Part shown: piece by piece, positions 5,250-12,738 of the stretch
Layout: each line of letters begins with the position of its first letter
Numbering within the stretch: position 1 is the first letter of the stretch
NCBI GenBank assembly: GCA_029717555.1
Contig: JAMDHS010000032.1
Span: 157,507 to 221,506, forward strand
Direction: 5' to 3'
DNA: 64,000 bases
From: Peribolospora baueri
Taxonomy: Eukaryota; Basidiomycota; Peribolosporomycetes; Peribolosporales; Peribolosporaceae
The notes under the pieces: model-generated
Told to the model about the DNA's origin: nothing
The model's input: the letters and a program-made list of their open reading frames with translations, nothing else
Database searches by the model: none
Made by a program: the position numbers and the translations under genes

Positions 5250-5301
<52 letters not shown>

Positions 5302-9454: not shown

Positions 9455-10307
9455 CCTTGTGTCGTTGACACACCCTCTATTACTTACCCGCGCCCCGTTC
9501 AGACACGCACGCAATCGGCATACATACATACATACAGTTCGGGTGCGCCTCCTCGAGGCGGGAGCTGACGTTCTGCAAGAAATCCCTCGGGACGGCCGGC
9601 CCAACCCAACAACGTGGAGTCAACGCTTTTTCCCAACGACGCCCGCGTGTCTCGTCGCCGACTTGCCCGACGTACCCGGCGTGCCCGCATGTCTGAGCAG
9701 ACCACTGTACCCGATCCAATGCCGAAACGAAATTAGTCAAATCGAAAACGGTCCCCCAAGTCACGCGGTTCAGCTTCCTCGACACGCGCTTAGCAATGTC
9801 TTCCGCCCGCTTCGGTCCTTTCGGCCGCCCCCTGTCAAGGTTTGCTATACGGTCCGATCCGATCCCATGCCACGCACGCGCCTGGGACGGGACTTGTGGT
9901 GGTGACGTTGCCCATGTCCTTGCCTCCGCGTCTGTGCTTCTTCTTTCTCTACGCCGCCTCGAAGCTCGCGGGAAGAAGAAGAAGAAGAAGAAGGGAGAGA
10001 CGGGCGGCGTCCATCTAGAGGATCTCCAGGTATCTGCCGCAAGGACGGCCCAACGCTCGTTGTCCCCCACGGCCACCGCTCCTCCGATCTCTTCCCGTTG
10101 CTCTTCACCTCGTGGCTCACTCACGCCTTAGCGCGCGAAGAAGGAGAATCTAAGTCCGGCCCGAGAGAAAGAAGAACATGTCGCGTTTCAGTCCAACCAC
10201 TAGCGTACCTACACGAGTCAATCAAGGCCCTCCATTTCCCGTCTTTCTCTCTTCTTATCCATCGATTCTTGAAAAATTTCCTTGAGACGGTATCATCGGT
10301 GACCCAT

Positions 10308-12738
10308 CTAAATCTTAGCCTTCCCGAACATCGAGTCCATATCTCCGCGGGCCCAAGATGCGAGGAGGACGCCCTGGGGGCCGTGGACGGGGTAGGGGGG
10401 GGGGGGGCCAACCGTGGCGGCGTGAGGTTAATCATTCAGTCAATACTCGACTCGGGCCGACCCGACTTCGTCTTCGGCGTCGAGGCCGATCTCGGACTCA
10501 CCGCGAGCGCCGTCTTGGCCGGCACCTTGATCCCTTTGACCTTGTCCTTGGCGTCCACGGCGGCGCTGCTCTCGTCCTTGGCGACGACCTTGCCAGCGCC
10601 CTCCTCGCCTTTATCGACCATCTGCTTCTTCGCACCGTTCCCCTCGGCGTCCACCAGGGCTTTCACGTTCGCGTCCATCCCTTCCAGGTCCTTTTGCGTG
10701 AGCGCCGAGTTGCCTGAGCGCTGCAGGGCTGCGACCACCTCAGCGCGGGAGAAGAAACGAGCGTCTATGGAGGCGGACGGAGAGAGAGAGAGAACGACGG
10801 AAGAAAGAGGTGAGTCATCCACAAAGGCCAGGCCAAAACGATGTCGATCGAAAGAGGACGACAGCGGGGGCCAACTGACCTTCCAACTCGTTGTCCAGGT
10901 CCAGACGGATCTTTTCACCGGGCACTGCTTCGGCAAACAGGCCAGCCATCATGTTGGCCGGGAAAGGCCAAGGCTGATTCGTTGGTTCCGACAGTCCGTC
11001 AGCCTCGGACGCGAAAGAAAGAGAAAGCGTTGCGCGGCTCACGACCAGTCCAGGTGAGCAGTTCAGCCGCCGTGTCCTTCACCCACCTGACTCGAGTGAT
11101 AGACAATCTTTCCAAGCTGGATTCCAGCCTCTTCGAGCACCTCGCGACGCACCGCCTGCTCGAGCGCCTCTCCCGGCTCGACGAAGCCGGCGAGGCACGA
11201 GTAGAAGCCTATCGATGCGAGAGCGCGCGTCCGCATGGAGACGAACGGCAACGTTGCACAGGTCAGGACACCGTAACTTATACCAAAGTGTACACGCATG
11301 AATTCGCAGACAAACGACGCTGCATAGACACTCGCCTTTGGGCCAAGTCTTCTGACGACCGAGGAGGACCTTGTCGTTTTCCGGCGAGACGATGGCCATA
11401 ATGATGACCGGATCGGTGCGCGGGTAGTTGTAGTTTTGCAAGCCTTTCCTGTGGCGGCACGGAGTCAGCGGAGGAAAGGGAAAAAATAGGTCTGAATGAG
11501 CCGTCACGCTCGCCGATTTGAGCTAGTCAACAGCCACCCGCTACCAAACGATCTGCTCACCCGCTGGGGCACTCGCGTACATGCTCGCTCCCCTTGGCCA
11601 TGGCCTCCAACGCGGAGCCATGAGCCGCGGAGCCGAGCAGAGAGATGCAAGAGCGCTTGTATCCTCCCCATAGAGCGTACATGCGACTGGCACATCCTGG
11701 ACAGTACTAGGTCGGGATGGGGCGTGTATAAAATGGGAACGGGACGTGAGCGGACGCACACAAACATAGGGGAGGCGGTATGCCTGAGGGCTCACTGTGT
11801 TACGCTCGTTCCAGTCGATCAAGCTCCTGGCCTGTGCGACGACACCGGCGTCGTGGTCGTCCCAAGTGCCGGCCGTCAGGCTGCGCGTGTCCACAAAGTT
11901 GTACTTTCCGGTCTTCTCGAGCTTCTGGAGCAGCTCTTGGACCGGTGACTCTGTGTTCACGTCCACCTCCGGGGCGCGGTAGGTGAGGGAGAGAGCAAAA
12001 TAAGGCGTTCCCGTCGGCGCGCTGGCGCTGGCGTTCGTGTTAGTGCCCGAGGCAGCCGCCGAAGAGGCGGGCTGGCCGGGGAGCGAGTCTGCACCCGTCG
12101 CTGACTCGTCAATGCCGAGGAAGACGAGCGCGAGCTGAGGAGGAACAAGGCCCTCGGTTTGCTTCTTCACGTCGACGTTGGGACCAGCACCCACGCTGTC
12201 GTCGATCAGAGAGCCCTTCGGTCCGAAAACTTCGCATTTGCTCGCATCCTGTCCCCGCAGCGCCGGAGGAAGGGAGCCAAGGACGGCGGGGGCGACGTCG
12301 GACCAGGAGAGAGTAGCGAGCTTTCCATTGAGAGGAGAGGACTCGTCAGCGTGCGCGAGAGGGTTGAGGTTCTTCAGAAGGACGAAGCGAGTGGTCGGCT
12401 GGGTGAGGGTGGAGGTCAGGAAGCTCGCGTTCTGGCGCAACCAGGATAGCCTAGAGAGGACGAAAATGGAACGGCGGAGAGAGGCAGGATGACGACGCCC
12501 GACTCAGTCTAGCATGCTCGCGTCTTCCCTATCTCTCCCCATGCGAGCCCCAAAGATAAGCCTAACCTGTTAAGCCTTGAACCCGCGTAAAAGTTAACTG
12601 CATGAAGCGCAAAGATCGGCTGAGTTCAAAATTGAGCCTGGGGGCGATCGGATACGATCAAGGCTTGTGCGCCTGCCTGCGGCTATGGCCTCACTGCACA
12701 AGCATCACGCGGATAAAATGCGTACCTGTCTGTGCCAT
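10308..12738 (-). CDS. NPY1: NADH pyrophosphatase (NUDT12/Npy1-type Nudix hydrolase), peroxisomal form
   Basis: Nine exons (minus): 12726-12738, 12567-12597, 11796-12450, 11561-11706, 11336-11448, 11087-11208, 10880-10973, 10502-10764, 10308-10373; 500 aa, all phases consistent. It starts MAQT then [11 protein letters not shown], the NPY1/NUDT12 opening. Zn-ribbon ligands are probably C235, C238, C253 and C279; the gap between the last two is about 20 residues longer than usual. The Nudix box is complete (G327 ... E333 ... REVLEEAGI ending at 349), followed by [11 protein letters not shown], the NADH-type signature, and ELEDARFF. The enzyme splits NAD(H) to NMN(H) and AMP. The C-terminus is AKI, a known PTS1 variant. 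Intron 5 uses a GC donor (AAAG|GCGAGT). Intron 8 contains C13 (sense). Retaining it gives a different C-terminus with a stop at 10436. Confidence 0.93.

Follow-up and report, generated by a model that had tools for sequence, protein, structure and literature searches.

The last intron of the NADH pyrophosphatase gene at this locus raises the question of whether its removal or retention decides where the enzyme works. Splicing completes a protein ending in AKI, a probable peroxisomal signal (PTS1), and the retained intron can be read as a different C-terminus, from which the first-pass annotation had proposed dual targeting of the enzyme. Were such a switch real, one intron would couple peroxisomal NADH breakdown to the cytosolic removal of NAD caps. 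The reading preferred here, and considered likely, is that the gene encodes a peroxisomal NADH pyrophosphatase and that its last intron is an ordinary one, spliced out of most transcripts. The features concerned are listed below, with positions numbered along the window, i.e. the whole 64-kb stretch of DNA that was analysed.

12738-10308, minus strand: NADH pyrophosphatase gene from start to stop codon, nine exons and 510 amino acids in the hand model
10502..10764, minus strand: exon 8, encoding the end of the Nudix domain, an insert rich in lysine and aspartate, and VPAKTALA as the first half of the last helix
10374..10501, minus strand: intron 8 of the hand model, phase 0, GTGAGT...CCCCAG, 128 nt
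10436..10438, minus strand: in-frame TGA reached in the sequence when intron 8 is retained, after 21 residues ending ESSID
10407-10395, minus strand: C13 tract in the sense strand of intron 8
10373-10308, minus strand: exon 9, its coding part (10311..10373) giving 21 residues, the remaining half of the last helix and a tail
10311..10319, minus strand: C-terminal AKI, a probable PTS1
10308..10310, minus strand: TAG stop of the spliced frame

The nine-exon model was built by hand from reading frames and splice sites. Exon 8 ends with the codon GCG at 10502 on the minus strand. Intron 5 (11209-11335) was a GC-AG intron in this model (GCGAGT...GATAG), and intron 3 had a weak donor, GTCCGC, which was chosen since it kept the frame and restored the CxxC of a zinc ribbon. 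As judged from its sequence, the gene at 10308..12738 on the minus strand is an NADH pyrophosphatase of the Npy1/NUDT12/NudC type, as the first-pass annotation had named it. Pfam found the NUDIX (PF00293, E 2.3e-16) and NUDIX-like (PF09296, E 9.9e-07) domains in the spliced product, the closest PDB chains were those of NUDT12 (E about 5e-47), and the NCBIfam model for NAD(+) diphosphatase scored 141.1, which was under its cut-off of 158. The Nudix box GFx4Ex7REx2EE was present at residues 337-356 and SQPWPFP at residues 369-375, while a zinc ribbon CVRC...C at 245-263 rests on the weak intron 3 donor that was picked partly to restore this motif. The whole-stretch NudC pattern (PMC6856373), whose first class was assumed to be [CS] as its opening letters were cut off in the passage, gave no match as written and matched once its gap of 5-35 was widened, the gap here being 36. 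A search of the gene's own genome returned seven matches up to E 1, all of them exons of the NADH pyrophosphatase gene itself, which indicates a single gene copy at that search sensitivity.

The protein shares with yeast Npy1 and mammalian NUDT12 the NUDIX-like and Nudix domains, the zinc-ribbon cysteines, the Nudix box, SQPWPFP, the conserved VPP..AIA..LI..W end and a probable C-terminal PTS1. It differs from them in the lysine/aspartate-rich insert before the last helix, in the final Ser of the SQPWPFPxS signature, which is Asn here, in having AKI as its PTS1 and in that no ankyrin repeats were found in it by Pfam.

The last junction was supported by homology. When the lysine-rich insert was removed, phmmer aligned the joined 16-residue end with NUDT12 VPPSRAIAHQLIKHWV; with the insert left in, the alignment stopped at residue 419, short of the joined end. 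The alignment obtained without the insert thus argues for the intron 8 splice, and as it spans the junction, this lies within the conserved last helix, which in NUDT12 reads VPPSRAIA before the corresponding point and HQLIKHW after it. The donor at 10501, the exon at 10373 and the AKI end of the first-pass annotation were confirmed. In E. coli NudC the six-stranded Nudix sheet is described as sandwiched by helices alpha2 and alpha3 (PMC6856373), and the last helix here is taken, by analogy, as the counterpart of alpha3. Alternative splicing of the 3' end was examined with strict, consensus-like site patterns only, and of the nine usable combinations of three donor-like and 14 acceptor-like sites, the annotated splice alone gave a PTS1-like end, AKI. 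Allowing up to three mismatches, the window had no second match to the 21 bases around the intron 8 donor, and no tandem repeats were found at score 30 in 10200-10900. A plus-strand open stretch of 383 residues (9906-11057) overlies intron 8 in antisense.

AKI as the end of the spliced protein is probably a working PTS1 in this species, as far as sequence and comparison with other fungi can indicate. An AKI end is known from the trifunctional enzyme of Candida tropicalis. The first-pass annotation had regarded AKI as a functional PTS1 variant in some yeasts, and AKI does work in at least one fungus, as it was enough to bring a fluorescent protein to the peroxisomes of Histoplasma (PMC13343957). 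Npy1 has been described as peroxisomal in Debaryomyces (PMC10526880) and NUDT12 is named as peroxisomal in its PDB entry. The malate synthase of Ustilago ends in ARI (PMC9133605), so that a terminal Ile is used in a basidiomycete. By chance, about 0.5% of proteins would be expected to have a C-terminus of the form [SAPC][KRH][LIM] and about 0.006% to end in AKI itself, as calculated from the composition of eight long open stretches in the window, not all of which are surely genes. Exons with Pex5-like TPRs were found on contig C156, and C163, C108 and C11 gave weaker matches. For yeast Npy1, C-SWAT fusions gave a homogeneous, cytosol-like signal (PMC7606564). These fusions are taken to be C-terminal tags that would mask a PTS1, and a real cytosolic share of Npy1 is possible. 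Yeast Npy1 has been implicated in removal of the NAD cap from RNA, which the authors place in the cytosol (PMC7606564), and with such a role it would be reasonable for part of the enzyme to be cytosolic.

For 11 other peroxisome-associated enzymes of the genome the C-terminus was read by eye, in seven of them through a splice that was also chosen by eye.

Acyl-CoA oxidases: AKL (C134, splice chosen by eye), SKE (C22, splice chosen by eye) and PKL (C11)
Catalase: IGL (C65, splice chosen by eye)
MaoC proteins: SKL (C95) and LAK (C44)
Malate synthase: AKL (C95, splice chosen by eye)
Carnitine acyltransferases: AKL (C28), AKL (C77, splice chosen by eye) and VGE (C44, splice chosen by eye)
Uricase: KTA (C178, splice chosen by eye)

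Six had a PTS1-like end (AKL four times, PKL and SKL once each), five had none and a -KI end was seen in none of the 11. Left out of this set were the MaoC matches on C123 and C106, which were read as fatty-acid-synthase-like, and a catalase on C89 that was not read through to its end. A Fox2-like multifunctional enzyme on C44 (about position 225500) ends TLAK with a GTGAGT overlapping its stop codon, and no PTS1-like last exon was found for it in the 1400 nt downstream with the patterns tried.

Retention of intron 8 leads to the frame that the first-pass annotation had described, with 21 residues ending ESSID followed by the TGA at 10438-10436, and by coincidence the retained and spliced proteins are both 510 residues long. 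That annotation had the last helix and AKI lost together; AKI is indeed lost, whereas only the second half of the helix goes, being replaced by VSPRSAS. The sequence accordingly does not give two isoforms that each have an intact catalytic domain. Halving of the helix would be expected to destabilise the Nudix domain, and the retained form would probably be a damaged protein and not a cytosolic enzyme. Pfam scored the two forms alike, and as its NUDIX match ends at residue 416 the profiles are blind to the loss of the helix.

The retained frame was unremarkable both among the introns of the gene and against shuffled sequence. A stop was reached inside the intron upon retention in six of the eight introns (introns 1, 2, 4, 6, 7 and 8), or in five of the seven besides intron 8, and introns 3 and 5 were open throughout, the reading then continuing out of frame into the following exons. 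When the intron 8 body was shuffled 5000 times, at least 21 codons were likewise open in 71% of cases. The locus is of value as a caution that a readable retained intron is no evidence of an isoform. The C13 tract, which had been suggested to make splicing variable, was present in the sense strand as the first-pass annotation had reported, and it was one of two C/G runs of at least 10 in the window. In the genome there were 1682 overlapping C13 positions, both strands taken together and long runs counted many times. The window also holds a run of 50 C at 5250-5299, and further long C/G runs occurred in the genome, including one with which contig C9 begins.

The start of intron 8 resembled coding sequence. 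In the retained frame its first 63 nt (10439-10501) had a coding score of 0.258, with a median of 0.21 for the coding windows of the gene, and this score was matched or exceeded by two of 333 windows from introns 1-7 and by 4.1% of 3000 dinucleotide shuffles. A second, composition-dependent score was 0.362 compared to 0.214 for coding sequence. The coding model was derived from eight open stretches of at least 400 codons in the window, which are not verified genes. The frame two bases on in the same 63 nt scored higher, at 0.302, so the coding-like three-base periodicity, seen in these two frames, does not single out the retained one. The coding-like start of intron 8 is an unexplained, weak hint toward a switch.

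Peroxisomal isoforms made by alternative splicing are documented in fungi (PMC3798809, PMC4207609, PMC9549241), so that the general premise of the first-pass annotation was sound. The spliced peroxisomal forms described include GAPDH of Ustilago maydis, PGK of Aspergillus nidulans and Mdh of Yarrowia lipolytica, the Yarrowia Mdh isoforms being highly similar and the Ustilago GAPDH form being a C-terminal extension (PMC3798809). As in these cases, splicing of an intron would in principle decide here whether the PTS1 end is made. Unlike in the GAPDH and Mdh cases, it is the default product that bears the tag here, and a retained intron would disrupt a conserved helix. Splicing of pumpkin hydroxypyruvate reductase similarly yields forms that carry a C-terminal peroxisomal (putative microbody) signal and forms that lack it, although that is a plant gene and its splicing depends on light (PMC3798809). 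A splice switch for Npy1 was not among the matches listed in the openly licensed literature, as far as titles and the openings of abstracts go. The switch idea is therefore a known kind of mechanism, and the step from there to intron 8 of this gene is an inference.

According to the preferred reading of a constitutively peroxisomal enzyme, intron 8 would be spliced in the ordinary course, which would complete the last Nudix-domain helix and add the AKI tail. AKI would most likely be recognised by Pex5 as a PTS1, and the enzyme would then act on NADH within peroxisomes. Any transcript that retained intron 8 would be noise or would lower expression, because half of a core helix would be missing from its protein. 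Intron retention is reported to be common in Cryptococcus and for the most part insensitive to NMD, and proteome diversity there was judged not to be greatly affected by alternative splicing (PMC5006051).

Several other explanations were weighed against this one. Regulated retention of intron 8, giving a cytosolic ESSID isoform beside the peroxisomal AKI isoform, could draw on the fungal precedents (PMC3798809), on the implication of yeast Npy1 in cytosolic NAD-cap removal (PMC7606564), on the coding-like codons at the intron start and on the finding of a single gene copy, since an enzyme active at two sites would then have to come from that one gene. It is nevertheless very improbable, as its cytosolic product would be deprived of half the conserved helix, a stop upon retention is typical of the introns of this gene (6/8), another frame carries the stronger coding-like signal and the C13 run is not the only one in the genome. 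The intron switch is, on the sequence, unsupported and unlikely because retention would break the conserved helix, and the proposal of dual targeting by this intron was not upheld. A retention event that, if it occurs, is simply unproductive and lowers expression of the enzyme would be in line with the tuning of expression by retention described in Cryptococcus (PMC5006051); this is an unlikely but conceivable account of intron 8.

The enzyme may also be divided between two compartments by its signal, without any part for splicing, if AKI were a weak PTS1 and a share of the protein stayed in the cytosol. AKL was the commonest of the 11 enzyme ends and AKI was absent from them, and the Pex5 paralogues of Ustilago differ over PTS1 variants, with two ARI ends preferring Pex5b (PMC9133605), yet the sufficiency of AKI in Histoplasma (PMC13343957) speaks against a weak signal, and this explanation is rather unlikely. 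That AKI is a chance ending of a wholly cytosolic enzyme is quite improbable, even though PTS1-like ends arise by chance at the rate given above and five of the 11 peroxisome-associated enzymes lacked one, because the orthologues NUDT12, by its PDB name, and Debaryomyces Npy1 (PMC10526880) are described as peroxisomal.

Two other genes of the same genome, malate synthase and phosphoglycerate kinase, are leads that appear to be better candidates for dual targeting than NADH pyrophosphatase, and the value of the present locus is in part that it points to them. The malate synthase gene (C95, about 212411-213700) has a phase-2 last intron of 125 nt with a GTGAGT donor that overlaps a stop codon, so that retention ends the protein in LTPHLE, while a splice chosen by eye leads to LTPHLDDYASTEPAKL followed by a stop, the last exon having 10 codons and ending EPAKL. 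As a lead this would be a cleaner on/off arrangement for a PTS1 than intron 8 of NADH pyrophosphatase. A mechanism shared by malate synthase and Npy1, in which retention of the last intron gives enzymes without a PTS1 and, for Npy1, a cytosolic form that decaps RNA, is highly improbable. For GAPDH on C167 no PTS1-like read-through end was seen (IAIAH). In phosphoglycerate kinase (C101, about 417700-418404, minus strand) the reading frame ends ALSEK and is followed by TAG CAA and then, in frame, by QSTPFARL and a stop. UAG CAA resembles the read-through context of the tobacco mosaic type. The ARL-ending extension is a possible read-through peroxisomal signal, and read-through of PGK is known in Ustilago (PMC3798809).
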